Below, piece by piece: positions 4,237 through 26,622 of a stretch of DNA of 29,539 bases. How positions within the stretch are numbered: position 1 is the first letter of the stretch; every line of letters starts with the position of its first letter. Both the position numbers and the translations under genes were made by a program. Under the pieces are notes generated by a model. The model saw only the letters and a program-made list of their open reading frames with translations, searched no databases and was not told the DNA's origin. This DNA comes from a virus. The stretch spans positions 1-29,539 of the IMG/VR virus record IMGVR_UViG_3300037485_000651; one strand, given 5' to 3'.

Positions 4237-5963
4237 GTATTACGTCCTATTGTTTGTGCTGTTCTTCTATTGCTGAAATAAATATCATTGCCTCTTACCA
4301 TGCCGTAAACTTCTACGGATTGAAGTCCACCAAATATATTAGCCGTTTGCGCCGATGGTGTAATTTGTGCGCCACGTGGAACGCTGATAAGTTCAGGTCC
4401 ACGTTCACCAACTAATGACAATCCGCCCGGTGCGAAGCGTGTACCTACGGCAAATGCTTGTTTCTTGCTTGCATTTGAAATCAGTTTGCCAATAGCAATA
4501 AGTGAAATACCTGCCGCAATAGCCAATACAGGATTCTTAATAAGTGCAGCCCTAATGGTTTTAATCAAATTAGCAGTTGTAATGAAATACTTGCCAAGCT
4601 GCTGCAATGCTGCACCTATTTGTTCAAATATTCCTGCAAAGAAATTACCAATAGATCCGCCCGATAAAAGACTACCAAACCCTTCACCAATGCTAATTAA
4701 AACATTTGAAAAAGACTCCCTGATAATTTCCCCTACTGCTAATGAAAAATCAACTATTTGCTGAAGGCTATTTCTTGCCGGGTTTAATAAATTATTAAAA
4801 AGTGTTTCGGGGTTTTCAATTTGAATATCAAGCTTTGCCGGAATGGTAACTACTTTCGATGCAGACGGGTTTTGCTTATTGCCGTAAAACAAATCCAAAA
4901 AGTCTTGTGTGATAACCCGGTTTAACTCCAATACGCTTTTCTTCAATTCATCTACCTGCTCCTTAGTTCTTTTGATAACCGAATTACCATCGTTTGCAGG
5001 GTTCAATTTGATAGCCTTTGAGAACTCTCCCAACTGTTTGGCTAAATCTTCAATCTCTTTATTTAAAGTTGCAATTTTACCTGCCCCAGTCCTTTCAGAA
5101 AAGGTTGTTAAAGCCTCCAATTGGTTAGCGAGTACACTATTGCCCCCTGAACGCAATTCGTTAGCGGTGCGGCTGTTAATAGCCTTAGAAAGGGCTGCTA
5201 AGTTCTTTATCTGCTGTGTCTGACCTACACCCTGAATCTCCAAAAGTTTAGTTAACTTTTCTTCTAACTTTAACTGTATGATTTTTACAGCAACAACATT
5301 CTTTATATTCTCAATGTAGGATTGATAAACCCTGTCCAATCCGCTAACGGCATCACCTTCCAATTTAAGCCCCTTAAATATTTCAGGGTTAATTTTGTTA
5401 AGTTCTTTTAGTGCAACAAGTTTGCGCTCCCTTGTTTCGGTTTCGGATTTCAATACCGTTATCAGGGTAAGCACCTGAGTGGCTTCTTTACCCTGCCCTT
5501 CAAAAATACCCTTAACCGCTTCGCTGTACTTCTTTGCCGATTCGGCTGCCTCATCAGCTCTTTTTGAAGAAGCAAATAACCGATCGCCAAAAACTATTAA
5601 CGCTGATGAAACTAAAGAAACAGCCAATCCCAAACCACCTGCCCCAACAAAGGATGAACCCAACGCTTTGAGGGCTGTTTTTGTTGAGCCAGTTTCAGCC
5701 TTTAATCTTTGAAAACTTTCAAGTAATGGATTAATGTTGTTGGCAATACCAAGAAAGCCAAACGGCGCATCCTGCACCACCCTGCCCAAGTTGGTAAGGG
5801 ATTGTGTAGCCTGAGCAGTACCCTTCCCTAATGTCTGAAGTTTACTATCTAACTTTTGCGCCTCCACCGCCGTTGTTGCTAATGACTTCGTAACAACAGC
5901 CGCACCCTTAGCAACATTATCAAACCCAACGGCACTAACAACGATTTCAATATTTTGCGCCAT
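4233..5963 (-). CDS. Tail tape measure protein
   Basis: At 576 residues this is a short tape measure protein, which sets tail length and occupies the tube lumen. The N-terminal 100 residues are Ala/Thr/Gln-rich and helical (SLTNLGRVVQDAPFGF is typical of Bacteroidota tape measures). Hydrophobic segments lie near residues 100-125 and 470-500 (NPVLAIAAGISLIAIGKLI), and long coiled-coil-like helices fill 140-340. The C-terminal motif GTRFAPGGLSLVGERGPEL is a hallmark of tape measure proteins. The gene directly follows the tail chaperone pair, overlapping the frameshifted product's stop by one base (TAATG), and overlaps the tail-tip gene by ATGA. By the usual scaling of about 0.15 nm per residue the tail would be roughly 85 nm long; this is an estimate. 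Confidence 0.92.
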   Translation of the reverse strand: MAQNIEIVVSAVGFDNVAKGAAVVTKSLATTAVEAQKLDSKLQTLGKGTAQATQSLTNLGRVVQDAPFGFLGIANNINPLLESFQRLKAETGSTKTALKALGSSFVGAGGLGLAVSLVSSALIVFGDRLFASSKRADEAAESAKKYSEAVKGIFEGQGKEATQVLTLITVLKSETETRERKLVALKELNKINPEIFKGLKLEGDAVSGLDRVYQSYIENIKNVVAVKIIQLKLEEKLTKLLEIQGVGQTQQIKNLAALSKAINSRTANELRSGGNSVLANQLEALTTFSERTGAGKIATLNKEIEDLAKQLGEFSKAIKLNPANDGNSVIKRTKEQVDELKKSVLELNRVITQDFLDLFYGNKQNPSASKVVTIPAKLDIQIENPETLFNNLLNPARNSLQQIVDFSLAVGEIIRESFSNVLISIGEGFGSLLSGGSIGNFFAGIFEQIGAALQQLGKYFITTANLIKTIRAALIKNPVLAIAAGISLIAIGKLISNASKKQAFAVGTRFAPGGLSLVGERGPELISVPRGAQITPSAQTANIFGGLQSVEVYGMVRGNDIYFSNRRTAQTIGRNT

Positions 5964-6585
5964 TACACTTTAATTTTATGTCGTTTTAAAATAGCATCGT
6001 AACGCTCCTTAGTCATTGCCGGGACTTCCCTCCTTTCATTAACCGGCCATATCTTTTCAATACTTCCCACCGCCTTACTACCTGCCATTGAACTTGCAAT
6101 AATATAGGTGGAGTACCGTGTTACCATCATCCGTTCTTTCTCCCGTTCATTGTAGCCCTCACAAGCCGCATAAAACTCAACAGGTAACGATGTATAGTAA
6201 TCGTAAGCACTCCACCCAAGTTTACCCAAAGCGAACTTTAGGTTTTCGTAGGCTATTTCTTTTGCGCTTTTTTTTTCACATCTTCCTCCTGCACTACACT
6301 TATCAAGTCTTTCCAAAGGCTTGTTTCCTGAAGCGTATTAACAACAAGTTCATTAACCTTTGCCTTGTCTTTCATCTCGTCCACCCAATCACAAACCTGC
6401 TCAAAGTTGTAATCCGGTTCTTCCCTCTTTACATAGGAGTTGCCACGTAAGCCCCCGTAATACAGGGCATACATAAAAGCCGATGTACTGCCGCCGTCAT
6501 TGTGGGTGCTGATAATTTCGATGGCAAGTTGGTTGAATTTTAAGCCACGTTGCTTACCACCAATTTCAATTTGTATGTAACTCAT
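5963..6585 (-). CDS. Tail assembly chaperone G-T, made by -1 frameshift
   Basis: The zero frame runs from ATG 6585 to the A run at 6276-6268 (106 codons). A -1 slip rereads base 6268 and continues as SAKEIAYENLKFALGKLGW to a TAA at 5965-5963, giving about 207 residues. The T part holds LPVEFYAACEGYNERE and TRYSTYIIAS, the usual pattern of the second half of tail chaperones (a D/E-rich 'FxAAxEGYxER' segment and a tryptophan/tyrosine helix). No independent start is convincing for the T frame: the ATG at 6316 lies inside G and would add an unlikely N-terminus. The layout (tube, G, G-T, tape measure) matches that of lambda-like and many other siphoviruses. Confidence 0.87.
6253..6585 (-). CDS. 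Tail assembly chaperone G (unshifted product)
   Basis: This 110-residue protein lies between the tail tube and the tape measure, the standard place for the tail assembly chaperone. It begins MSYIQIEIGGKQRGLKFNQL, the ubiquitin-like beta start seen in chaperones of this kind, followed by a helical region that includes YYGGLRGN and FEQVCDWVDEM. It ends in a lysine-rich tail (VKKKAQKK) encoded across a run of nine A residues, where a -1 shift produces the longer G-T protein. Chaperones of this class coat the tape measure and recruit tube subunits; they are not expected in the finished virion. Confidence 0.88.
   Translation of the reverse strand: MSYIQIEIGGKQRGLKFNQLAIEIISTHNDGGSTSAFMYALYYGGLRGNSYVKREEPDYNFEQVCDWVDEMKDKAKVNELVVNTLQETSLWKDLISVVQEEDVKKKAQKK
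6268..6276 (-). promoter_or_regulatory. A9 slippery site for -1 translational frameshift
   Basis: Nine consecutive A residues on the coding strand fill three in-frame AAA lysine codons of the chaperone gene, followed by GCG. A one-base backward slip moves ribosomes into the T frame, which is open for 102 codons, while the zero frame stops 15 bases after the A run. Both the position in the gene order and the frame direction (-1) agree with the conserved tail chaperone frameshift. Confidence 0.85.
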
Positions 6586-18623: not shown

Positions 18624-19700
18624 TTACACATCTTCCATCTGTTGTATTGCTTTAAAAATCTGTAATGCCACCTGTGGCACAATAGCGTTACCTGCTGCCT
18701 TTATGGATTCGTTTCGCCATTTAGGAAAGGTAATGCCGTCCAGTCGGGTGGAAAGCCCATCATCTCCAAAACGAATAGGGGGTTGAGTTGGGAAGTTTTG
18801 CCAGTAATTTCCCGACTCATTTTCACCAATGAATCCTGATTCTCCAGTCCTGTTACTTTGTCCCCGCAATCCGATGCCATTGGTGTTGGCAACATCTTGC
18901 TTGCTATTACATCCTCCAAATTCCCTTTCTGTCTGTCGTTGCTGCAATTCCCCCCTGCTGCTCTTGCCCTCACGGTTGGCAGCATCCCCGCCCATCTGCT
19001 CAATGTTACGCTGTGCATACTCCCCTCCTTCACCTGTGTTGATTTCATGTTGGCTGTAGCTCCCGTGCTGTCCATTGCTGTTGGGGTGGGGATCATCTTG
19101 TAAATCCTCTCCAATAAAAATCCGTTCTTTGCTTCCTGTGCTAAGTTGCCCGATGTTCCCGAAATCCCCTTGCTTGTCATGTTCTCCATTTCCGCATCCA
19201 TTGCGCCCGGTGTCTTTAAAAGCAATAAACCAAACCCTATCCCTTCTGTGGGGAGCGTTGACGGCACAAGCTGGAAGTACATACGCCCAGACTTCGTACC
19301 CCGCAGCTTCCAAGTCAGTTTGCACCTCATCGAATACCATCCCTTCATTCCAATTAATGAGGCCGCCAACATTTTCGCCCACAACCCAACGTGGTTGAAC
19401 TTCTCTAATTGCTCTAAGCATTTCCGGCCACAAGTGGCGTTCATCTTCTTTGCCTTTTCGTTTTCCTGCAAGGCTGTAGGGCTGGCAGGGGAATCCTCCT
19501 GTAAGAATATCAATTCTGTTTGCATATTTTGTAAAATCTGTTTTAGTAATATCTGAAAATCCTTCCGCTTCCGGAAAGTGATGCCGTAAAACTTTTTGTC
19601 CAAATTCATTCCATTCGCACCAGGCTAACGTTTCCCAACCCATCCACCTGGCAGCAAGTGAAAAACCTCCGATGCCTTCAAACAGTCCTAAGTGGTTCAT
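18624..19700 (-). CDS. DNA (cytosine-5) methyltransferase
   Basis: This 358-residue enzyme has all core motifs of C5 cytosine methyltransferases: motif I GLFEGIGGFSLA (5-16), motif IV GGFPCQPYSLAG with the catalytic Cys71, motif VI GENV (106-109), motif VIII HRRDRVWFIA (149-158), and motif X AAGNAIVPQVALQIFKAI near the end. It probably methylates phage DNA against host restriction. Between 160 and 310 the sequence is low-complexity and rich in Gly, Asn and Gln, where a target-recognition domain should be, and this same DNA carries a long ORF in the +1 frame (18701-19609). It overlaps the next upstream gene by 23 bases. Confidence 0.92.
   Translation of the reverse strand: MNHLGLFEGIGGFSLAARWMGWETLAWCEWNEFGQKVLRHHFPEAEGFSDITKTDFTKYANRIDILTGGFPCQPYSLAGKRKGKEDERHLWPEMLRAIREVQPRWVVGENVGGLINWNEGMVFDEVQTDLEAAGYEVWAYVLPACAVNAPHRRDRVWFIAFKDTGRNGCGNGEHDKQGDFGNIGQLSTGSKERIFIGEDLQDDPHPNSNGQHGSYSQHEINTGEGGEYAQRNIEQMGGDAANREGKSSRGELQQRQTEREFGGCNSKQDVANTNGIGLRGQSNRTGESGFIGENESGNYWQNFPTQPPIRFGDDGLSTRLDGITFPKWRNESIKAAGNAIVPQVALQIFKAIQQMEDV
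18701..19609 (-). CDS. Overlapping ORF inside the methyltransferase gene (+1 frame)
   Basis: A 302-codon ORF starts with an ATG at 19609 and lies wholly inside the methyltransferase gene in the +1 frame. It does not read like a chance frame. Residues 40-100 (ASPTALQENEKAKKM, CGRKCLEQLEKF, MRCKLTWKLRG, RMYFQLVPSTLPTEG) and the repeated LPTPxAxD motifs in the second half (IPTPTAMD, MLPTPMASD), then QLNPLFVLEMMGFPPDW, look like segments I recall from single-frame phage methylase-associated proteins. The second half lies where the methyltransferase frame is low-complexity. It could be a separate protein or an extension made by frameshifting. The first half could instead look familiar only because the overlapping frame is conserved. 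Confidence 0.5.
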   Translation of the reverse strand: MNLDKKFYGITFRKRKDFQILLKQILQNMQTELIFLQEDSPASPTALQENEKAKKMNATCGRKCLEQLEKFNHVGLWAKMLAASLIGMKGWYSMRCKLTWKLRGTKSGRMYFQLVPSTLPTEGIGFGLLLLKTPGAMDAEMENMTSKGISGTSGNLAQEAKNGFLLERIYKMIPTPTAMDSTGATANMKSTQVKEGSMHSVTLSRWAGMLPTVRARAAGGNCSNDRQKGNLEDVIASKMLPTPMASDCGDKVTGLENQDSLVKMSREITGKTSQLNPLFVLEMMGFPPDWTALPFLNGETNP

Positions 19701-20394
19701 CTTGTTTTAAGTTATTATTAAAAAATTCCGCAACCGCTATTTGCCTTAATAGCCTGTTGTACGTTGACTGCTTATCGACTTCGCCGATGAAGCAATCTTT
19801 ATCATGGTAAAGTAAATTGCTGATAAACCTATCTGCTGCCTCCTTTATTCTTTGCTTTTCCTCGTCTGTTGGGTTTAGGTTTAAAAGCCTGTAAAGTTTC
19901 GAAGGAATGAGCATGATGTTCTTTGTTGACTTCCAAAGCCCTTGCCCTATCTCAATCCATTCTTCATCCGTTACTGGATCCGGTGGTGCTGAGAGCTCTT
20001 TAGGCTTTGGTTTTGGAAGTTCCTTGTACCGTTCCCTTGCCCATGCCCGGTAAGCGTTCATAATTTGAGAAAAGTACATACAGGAAAAGTTTTCATAATG
20101 GTTTACTTCACATTCCAGTTCCCCTGCAATAGCTTTGTCAAACGCTAAAATTACTTCTTCAATGGTATGGCTTCCAAAATTGTTCGTAATGTGATTAATC
20201 AATACGTCCTTTTCCAGCCCATTAGGGAAGTTGACAGCCCTTAACCCAACCTTTGTCATTATAAGCCTTAGAGCAGCCTGTAACGATTCCACAGGTACGG
20301 ATTTTATCTTAATGCCTTTCATGGCTTCTGCGAAGCTACCAGTTCTTGAGGGCTTCCATTCTTGCTGCTGAAGTTCCAAGTTTTGCTTGTCCAT
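19678..20394 (-). CDS. Replication-module protein, possible helicase-loader partner
   Basis: This 238-residue protein has no domain I can name firmly. It is helical, with GSHTIEEVILAFDKAIAGEL followed by FSCMYFSQIMNAYRAWARER (residues 70-125), then a Pro/Lys linker (PKPKPKELSAPPDPVTDEEW) and a helical C-terminus. A helical body plus linker next to a Lin1244-like replication gene resembles the helicase-loader or DnaT-like partner often paired with it, but this is inference. It overlaps the upstream replication gene by 59 bases and the methyltransferase gene by 23 bases. Confidence 0.6.
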   Translation of the reverse strand: MDKQNLELQQQEWKPSRTGSFAEAMKGIKIKSVPVESLQAALRLIMTKVGLRAVNFPNGLEKDVLINHITNNFGSHTIEEVILAFDKAIAGELECEVNHYENFSCMYFSQIMNAYRAWARERYKELPKPKPKELSAPPDPVTDEEWIEIGQGLWKSTKNIMLIPSKLYRLLNLNPTDEEKQRIKEAADRFISNLLYHDKDCFIGEVDKQSTYNRLLRQIAVAEFFNNNLKQDEPLRTV

Positions 20395-25281: not shown

Positions 25282-25646
25282 GGCGGTAGTTTTAGATGGG
25301 TGAGGTAATTAGGTTGCCTGGTTGCATTTTCAATGTCATCGGAAACGTAAACATTGTATGCCATACCATACCCGTTCGTAAATGGAGTGGTTATAACTAC
25401 AAGATACAATTCCTTTTCCGTGTCCTCTACTTCAAGCATGAGGTTGTTCGACGATTCATAAAAATTAGTATAAGATCCGTTAATCTGCCATGTTTTTTTT
25501 ATGCCATTAACCGCACCACCTAACGGAAATTGGTCATCGGTTTCAAAGTTAGTTAAATGCTTCACTTCCCTGCCATCGGCAGTTACTGGTTTGCCGCCTG
25601 CCTTCCATGCTTCGATGCTGAAGGGGATTGTTTTTGTTTTTTTCAT
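25269..25646 (-). CDS. Small phage protein, paralogue of 26179-26622 product
   Basis: This 125-residue protein starts MKKTKTIPFSIEAWKAGGKP, with VTADGREVKHLTNF, then FPLGGAVNGIKKTW and a later hydrophobic LYLVVITTPF. The protein encoded at 26179-26622 has the same plan (W.SGDYLKVVTGL, LLEFTEF, YPLIGSANGYRKSF, DLFLIVAD), so the two are probably paralogues. The 'W..G....T..G..V..L..F......PL.G...G' layout occurs in small early proteins of many phages; role unknown. It is coupled to the upstream gene by ATGA. Confidence 0.7.
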   Translation of the reverse strand: MKKTKTIPFSIEAWKAGGKPVTADGREVKHLTNFETDDQFPLGGAVNGIKKTWQINGSYTNFYESSNNLMLEVEDTEKELYLVVITTPFTNGYGMAYNVYVSDDIENATRQPNYLTHLKLPPCNS

Positions 25647-26182
25647 TGTATCATTGTTTTAAGGTGATTGATTTGTTCAGAACTTGCCGCATAAAATGCC
25701 GCAGAACTTGCCGCAGAATATGCCGCATCACTTGCCGCATCACTTGCCGCATAAAATACCGCAGAACTTGCCGCAGAAAATGCCGCAGAACTTGCCGCAG
25801 AATATGCCGCAGAATATGCCGCAGAAAGTTCTTCATCCGTAGAACTTGCCGCAGAATATGCCGCAGAATATGCCGCAGAAAGTTCTTCATCCGTTGCCTC
25901 GCCATTAGCATATCTTTCAGCTACATTACAAGCCTCTACACTTCTTGCATCAGGGTTTTTAATTAACTTCAAAGCCTCCCTTGCACACCACACGGCAAAT
26001 AATCTCAAAGTTTTTACATCAATAAATTCCTCCCTAAGAACCACCCATAGCCTATCGTGAGGAGGGCAATCTTCTACATTTAGAATGTCAAGTACCGTAC
26101 CTGTCCAGTCTTCGGGAATGTATTTTATCGGGTCGTAACAAAGCGTTAACGCCTTGATGTCGTTGTATGTTATTTGTTTCAT
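25643..26182 (-). CDS. Protein with alanine-rich YSAA repeats
   Basis: The product from ATG 26182 has 179 residues. A longer frame begins at 26236, but the ATG at 26182 overlaps the upstream TGA (ATGA), so it is the better start. Residues 1-105 form an alpha-helical domain (DIKALTLCYDPIKYIPEDW, DRLWVVLREEFIDVKTLRLF followed by AVWCAREAL, RSVEACNVAERYANGEATDE). The C-terminal 70 residues are an Ala/Ser/Tyr repeat of SAAY and SAAS units. Similar helical domain plus Ala-rich tails occur in phage accessory proteins I have seen; an immunity- or superinfection-type role has been suggested for look-alikes but is not shown here. Confidence 0.75.
   Translation of the reverse strand: MKQITYNDIKALTLCYDPIKYIPEDWTGTVLDILNVEDCPPHDRLWVVLREEFIDVKTLRLFAVWCAREALKLIKNPDARSVEACNVAERYANGEATDEELSAAYSAAYSAASSTDEELSAAYSAAYSAASSAAFSAASSAVFYAASDAASDAAYSAASSAAFYAASSEQINHLKTMIQ
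25684..25894 (-). repeat. Coding 12-nt repeats with a 54-nt tandem duplication
   Basis: The DNA cycles with a 12-base period (GCCGCAGAACTT-type units). Within it, 25787-25840 and 25841-25894 are perfect, adjacent 54-base copies, encoding TDEELSAAYSAAYSAASS twice. The perfect identity implies recent duplication by slippage or unequal exchange. Repeat units are in frame, so copy changes alter only the tail length. Confidence 0.85.
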
Positions 26183-26622
26183 ACTGTATATTTTTCTTTG
26201 GTGATAAAATCTAAATCCTGAATTACCTTGTGCCATGACTTGACAGCAAATATCTGTGATGCTTTCAAGTCGGGGAATGTGTAAACAAACGCATCACGAC
26301 TTTGCAACTTTTCCGCACGCACCTTAATAAAATTGCCTGTTGCTTCCCATTGGTTATTATCAACCGGGATGTTGTAATCAAATTCAATTGGTTCGTTATC
26401 GGCAACGATTAGGAAAAGGTCTTCGGCATTTTCTACTTCATCTGTGAGGTAATGTCCTTTTTTAGTGAAGGATTTTCGGTATCCGTTTGCAGAGCCGATA
26501 AGGGGATAATTTATAAGTGTTTTAAACTCTGTAAACTCCAATAATTCTGTATCAAGACCTGTTACTACTTTAAGGTAATCACCGCTTTTCCAGCGGTCGT
26601 AATCGAATTTTACTTTTTTCAT
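26179..26622 (-). CDS. Small phage protein, paralogue of 25269-25646 product
   Basis: This 147-residue protein starts MKKVKFDYDRWKSGDYLKVV, with ELLEFTEFKTLINYPLIGSA then NGYRKSFTKKGHY, DLFLIVAD and a C-terminal extension (KSWHKVIQDLDFITKEKYTV) absent from the shorter paralogue. Only the first 100 residues are shared. It overlaps the repeat protein gene by four bases (ATGA). I do not know its function; two copies around the repeat gene suggest duplication of an early-gene unit. Confidence 0.7.
   Translation of the reverse strand: MKKVKFDYDRWKSGDYLKVVTGLDTELLEFTEFKTLINYPLIGSANGYRKSFTKKGHYLTDEVENAEDLFLIVADNEPIEFDYNIPVDNNQWEATGNFIKVRAEKLQSRDAFVYTFPDLKASQIFAVKSWHKVIQDLDFITKEKYTV

Follow-up and report, generated by a model that had tools for sequence, protein, structure and literature searches.

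A phage cytosine-5 methyltransferase gene with a nested +1-frame gene that probably encodes its recognition subunit

Two open reading frames at the methyltransferase locus

The window analyzed in this study is a stretch of viral DNA of 29,539 nucleotides (IMG/VR record IMGVR_UViG_3300037485_000651). Its minus strand carries a C5-cytosine methyltransferase ORF of 358 amino acids (alpha, 18624..19700; Pfam PF00145, E=2.5e-46), the start of which overlaps the end of an upstream ORF (19678-20394). Nested within alpha in the +1 frame is a second ORF (beta, 18701..19609, minus strand) that encodes 302 amino acids from the ATG at 19609; from stop to stop this frame is open for 307 codons and spans alpha residues 26-333, with alpha overhanging it on both sides. 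Both long open frames given in a preliminary description of this DNA are thus present with the extents proposed there.

The alpha chain displays the PF00145 hallmarks of motifs I-VIII, including PCQ, ENV and RxR, within residues 1-165 (19206..19700, minus strand), which AlphaFold and Foldseek identify as the catalytic domain. The predicted structure is confident here (pLDDT mostly at least 90, with dips at the catalytic loops), and the domain matches M.HhaI in sequence as well as fold, the Foldseek match (E=3e-17 across 165 columns) being confined to the catalytic domain. Residues 167-325 (18726..19202, minus strand), where the target-recognition region (TRD) and motif IX would be expected, are of low complexity, as the preliminary description had claimed, and most of them are modeled at a pLDDT of approximately 35-45. 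Residues 326-357 (18630..18725, minus strand) form the confidently modeled helices of motif X (NESIKAAGNAIVPQV), in which G337, N338 and A339 are invariant among 73 sequences. Alpha therefore contains motifs I-VIII and X, with motif IX not recognizable, and neither AlphaFold nor Foldseek found a folded TRD with motif IX in this chain.

Beta residues 60-120 (19250..19432, minus strand) lie over the catalytic frame and form a conserved N-terminal domain, with conserved columns, a predicted helix-helix-strand-strand order and the pattern WYS..C.LTWK....R.YFQL. This is the best part (pLDDT 60-85) of a poor AlphaFold model of beta alone (mean pLDDT 57.6). Residues 131-270 (18800..19219, minus strand) make up an LPTPxAxD-repeat region, the proposed TRD, and the sequences IPTPTAMD, MLPTPMASD and QLNPLFVLEMMGFPPDW that had been pointed out earlier all occur in this frame. 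A motif IX-like sequence (SQLNPLFVLEMMGFPPDWT) follows at residues 273-291 (18737..18793, minus strand), and the residues of the C-terminus (SQLNPxFVxEMMGFPPDWT) are spaced as in m5C motif IX. When a profile of the beta C-terminus was compared with 177,635 distinct PDB sequences, 11 of the 12 matches were M.HhaI variants, aligned at residues 266-307 (LHPRECARVMGYPDSY); since each of these has a weak E value of approximately 0.37, the weight of the result rests on which protein and which part rank first, namely motif IX of M.HhaI.

Profile searches matched beta to PHROG 1008, annotated as 'DNA methyltransferase' (E=1.2e-27), as they did all 108 of the 108 aligned beta-family members, while no match was found to Pfam and NCBIfam profiles. 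The preliminary description had pointed to a resemblance to single-frame, phage methylase-associated proteins; the resemblance is borne out by PHROG 1008, but the term single-frame is not, as the near relatives are almost all nested in the +1 frame. Beta belongs to PHROG 1008, yet the label of that family hides the nested partner frame, and beta is not itself a catalytic methyltransferase. Searches of the PDB with the whole beta sequence, including its N-terminal domain, gave no match, and Foldseek found no fold in the PDB for the beta model, which is expected given its low pLDDT. With the model poor and no fold found in the PDB, the TRD was placed by its position in single-chain relatives (see below).

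Two other features of the window, both on the minus strand, were noted. Two small overlapping ORFs at 5963-6585, upstream of a tape-measure-like gene, have a run of nine A residues (gtgaaaaaaaaagc) in their overlap, an arrangement reminiscent of programmed frameshifting in tail-assembly chaperone genes. At 25643-26236, an ORF ends in an alanine/serine-rich repeat (SAAYSAASSA...) comprising 16 copies of 12-base units, and a second frame over the repeats is open too.

Conservation and constraint of the second frame

A tblastn search with beta identified 74 phage records; Bacteroides, Paenibacillus, Lacticaseibacillus and Mycobacterium are among the hosts. Nested +1 matches occur in Bacteroides phages BKO1-TP3 and BS-TP4, Paenibacillus phage Tadhana and Lacticaseibacillus phage R9.1; both genes are annotated in Tadhana (gp54 and gp55) and one of the two in each of the others. 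The +1 relation was found in all 86 of the loci collected first (80 from IMG/VR, fetched with beta) and in 79 of 80 bacterial-genome loci fetched with beta, which derive mostly from Bacteroidota but also from Bacillota, Balneolota, Planctomycetota, Chloroflexota and one Burkholderiaceae MAG. Selection by beta was avoided in a further set of 78 new viral loci fetched with alpha, some of whose contigs are common to the first set. Frequent +1 stops among relatives had been named beforehand as evidence against a second gene; instead, 77 of these 78 loci had a +1 frame with homology to the window beta that was open over 230-383 codons (the exception, L133, has a broken +1 frame), while the +2 frame contained at least 18 stops in each locus. 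Canonical single-frame m5C methyltransferases (n=4) have 24-27 stops in the +1 frame.

The possibility that beta is mainly free-standing was examined and rejected, with only 3 of the 189 loci found by three distant beta queries having a beta with no overlapping alpha under the criteria applied; seven weak loci among the 189 had no beta match. Whole-genome sampling yielded matches in 3 of 296 genomes, including the seed, so the arrangement is rare per genome in that sample. Three loci from Bacteroides and Mucilaginibacter genomes (L240, L241 and L242) have a broken alpha (190 amino acids, or frame-shifted) with beta wholly or partly readable, and represent either decayed prophages or sequencing errors.

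Synonymous shuffles of the window that kept the alpha protein and its codon usage contained a mean of 3.7 alternative-frame stops and were open in 0.3% of trials. Across 100 non-redundant relatives, such shuffles predicted 4.7 beta-frame stops per locus and zero were observed; zero stops results partly from filtering for intact ORFs, and the unselected, alpha-fetched test therefore weighs more. Among the same number of non-redundant relatives, compared in pairs at 75-95% nucleotide identity, the differences at alpha codon position 3 amounted to 0.316 upstream of the beta ORF, 0.225 where beta overlaps the catalytic domain, 0.307 within the TRD and 0.083 across the beta C-terminus, then 0.393 just past the beta stop. 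Within the TRD, alpha position 1, equivalent to beta position 3, varied most (0.435), and repeating the analysis on a beta alignment agreed with this result (0.314, 0.285 and 0.450 for beta positions 1, 2 and 3, respectively). Protein identity over the TRD in the same pairs was 61% for beta versus 44% for the alpha frame. These patterns indicate that alpha rules the catalytic motifs, that beta rules the TRD, and that both frames are constrained in the motif IX region.

Constraint thus acts in both frames, a point that the preliminary description had left to be checked, with alpha position 3 differences dropping and then rebounding at the limits of beta. The same description had cautioned that the first half of beta might look familiar merely as an echo of the catalytic frame; this concern was not upheld, since the conservation of the beta family extends to that half, and the N-terminal part over motifs IV-VIII has an amino acid identity of 0.76 in close pairs. 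Taken together, conservation, codon-position periodicity and the shuffles strongly support the proposal that the locus is truly dual-coding.

Translation of the window beta could start at ATG 19609 or at ATG 19525 (residue 29), the shorter form also being plausible, and the start methionines of relatives cluster at the equivalents of residues 18-19 and 29. Bacillota-type loci contain Shine-Dalgarno-like sequences inside alpha before the beta start (GGAGGT in Tadhana). A Shine-Dalgarno sequence of at least 5 nucleotides precedes the principal beta start in at least 6 of 12 distinct Bacillota-type loci, versus 4% of 447 background start codons from the same region, a comparison that is approximate because each locus has several candidate starts and that covers Bacillota-type loci, the window's own start being of the Bacteroidota type.

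Nested, split and single-chain relatives

BLAST-based architecture labels were assigned to 421 loci, a redundant set, of which 340 were nested, 56 split (some of these labels stem from contig ends or mutations), 20 single-chain and 5 odd; a motif-regex scheme that left 82 of 430 loci unclear was dropped. Two of the single-chain loci, L282 and L276, are single ORFs in which the catalytic motifs, LPTP repeats, a motif IX of the form LNP/LSP...LM and motif X all occur in one frame. The alpha of one nested relative (L233) maps to L282 residues 4-158 and 370-408 (E=2e-45 and 6e-7) and its nested beta to residues 197-307 (E=1e-10), while hhalign places the beta family at residues 238-321 of L282 (E=6e-9). 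In L276, the N-terminal part of alpha, beta and the C-terminal part of alpha follow one another in the same order. These natural single-chain fusions provide the decisive evidence, at the level of sequence, on what beta is. Split relatives include L260, L357 and L388, in which alpha stops early and beta continues into motif X, and mycobacteriophage Jarcob is a mosaic with the first motifs in gene 69 and motif VIII, the repeats and motifs IX and X in another frame.

In a tree of the catalytic domain, nested is the majority state and is present in deep branches, and the tree requires 6 changes to the single-chain state and 19 to the split state (at least 3 and at least 11, respectively, by well-supported branches). 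A good deal of the tree's backbone is weakly supported; consequently, a nested ancestral form is offered as a suggestion. In some single-chain loci of the actinophage type (L290, L296, L301 and L305), the +1 frame still yields a beta-like N-terminal reading (TSGPT..., ETWP.SG.MR.G) where it overlaps the catalytic region, and both forms may be made there.

HNH endonuclease-like inserts occur just after motif IX inside the alpha/beta genes of three relatives (L006, 2499-2897; L191, 3913-4311; L036, 3801-4427). The ShiLan domain is an out-of-frame HNH endonuclease in a phage methylase, inserted as a homing element (PMC11855218), and L006 and L191 are ShiLan-like in that their HNH occupies the beta frame and alpha reads on without a stop across the insert as far as motif X; in L036 it is the alpha frame that contains an HNH_3 domain. 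Both ShiLan and the window locus have a second protein read out of frame from a phage methylase gene, but the second frame of the window locus, unlike that insertion, covers most of the methyltransferase itself.

A probable two-polypeptide methyltransferase and competing explanations

M.EcoHK31I (Lee, Kam and Shaw, 1995) is an m5C methyltransferase for YGGCCR that is reported to have its beta gene inside the alpha gene in a different frame, and the window likewise has its small ORF lying within the large one, out of frame. M.AquI (Karreman and de Waard, 1990) is an m5C methyltransferase for CYCGRG. An E. coli plasmid match considered as a candidate for M.EcoHK31I was rejected, as examination revealed a canonical single-frame enzyme. 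Both enzymes are named as natural two-polypeptide m5C methyltransferases in a published account, which places motifs I-VIII and X of M.EcoHK31I in the large polypeptide and motif IX in the small, assigns the predicted TRD to the large subunit, and gives the M.AquI small subunit the distal variable region and motifs IX and X (PMC3404938). The window resembles M.EcoHK31I in having a large ORF that contains motifs I-VIII and X and lacks IX, and a small ORF that contains IX. It differs in that the TRD-like region is apparently in beta (approximately 300 amino acids) rather than in the large chain, the two being compared by description, and in that the window-type arrangement is widespread. As in M.AquI, the enzyme is naturally split into a catalytic and a recognition part; however, motif X is in alpha rather than in the small subunit, and relatives of the split type whose beta terminates in motif X (L260, L357 and L388) are closer to M.AquI on this point. 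No description of the overlap as a family was found in open-access full text, subscription papers being outside the scope of the search.

The locus very probably encodes a two-polypeptide DNA cytosine-5 methyltransferase in which the gene for the recognition subunit, beta, is nested in the alpha gene. Dual coding, the distribution of motifs and the single-chain relatives with both halves in order can be read from the sequences; the heterodimer, internal initiation in this phage, specificity residing in beta and the biological role are what we infer from them. Alpha (frame 0) would bring the catalytic domain (motifs I-VIII), which binds S-adenosylmethionine, together with the motif X helices at its C-terminus; beta (+1 frame) would bring a small domain at its N-terminus, the target-recognition region with its LPTPxAxD repeats, and motif IX. 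Most likely initiated internally on alpha's mRNA, beta would dock on alpha, completing the enzyme and giving it DNA specificity. The phage probably uses the methyltransferase to mark its own DNA against host restriction, a likely role given that no restriction endonuclease was recognized beside the locus when the ORF list of the window was read by eye.

There are several potential alternatives to this explanation. The preliminary description had offered either a second protein or a frameshift fusion, and the former is favored, best read as a second subunit. A programmed +1 frameshift after motif VIII would yield a single catalytic-TRD-motif IX chain beside unshifted alpha, and the constancy of the +1 relation and the existence of relatives with both halves fused in one frame would fit such a mechanism. 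It is nevertheless improbable: the shifted product of the nested form would be without motif X, the N-terminal part of beta is conserved as protein although a shift after motif VIII has no need of it, and beta has its own start region, preceded in Bacillota relatives by internal Shine-Dalgarno sites. Slightly less probable still is that beta has an independent function (for example, in anti-restriction or regulation) and shares DNA with the methyltransferase gene without being part of the enzyme. Its missing Pfam match and an N-terminal domain unmatched in solved methyltransferases are in keeping with this idea, but the C-terminal half of beta occupies the exact TRD-motif IX position of single-chain methyltransferases, and alpha has neither element. 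Finally, biased composition may leave overlaps open by chance, and the +1 frame could in principle be a by-product of the codon and amino acid composition of alpha. The likelihood of this is negligible in view of how seldom the shuffled frame is open per locus, the homology of beta across phyla, the shared PHROG 1008 match of the whole beta family, and the fall and recovery of position 3 differences at the limits of beta.

To our knowledge, same-strand complete overlaps of approximately 300 codons conserved across bacterial phyla are rare. More tentatively than the reading of the locus itself, and as a nearly balanced possibility, it is proposed that dual coding is obligatory in an old and large class of m5C methyltransferases from phages and prophages, in which the +1 frame of the catalytic half would encode the recognition half (N-terminal domain, TRD and motif IX). 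On its own, the annotated methyltransferase would then be without specificity, and the nested form would be the older one, with split and single-chain forms arising more than once by frame fusion. If the two-polypeptide reading is right, many single 'dcm' annotations would represent an incomplete enzyme with an unannotated or mislabelled partner, recoded cloning of the annotated ORF would abolish activity, and methylation specificity predicted from the annotated chain would rest on the wrong sequence. In addition, with nested, split and single-chain forms in one family, how an overlapping gene arises and is resolved can be tested directly.
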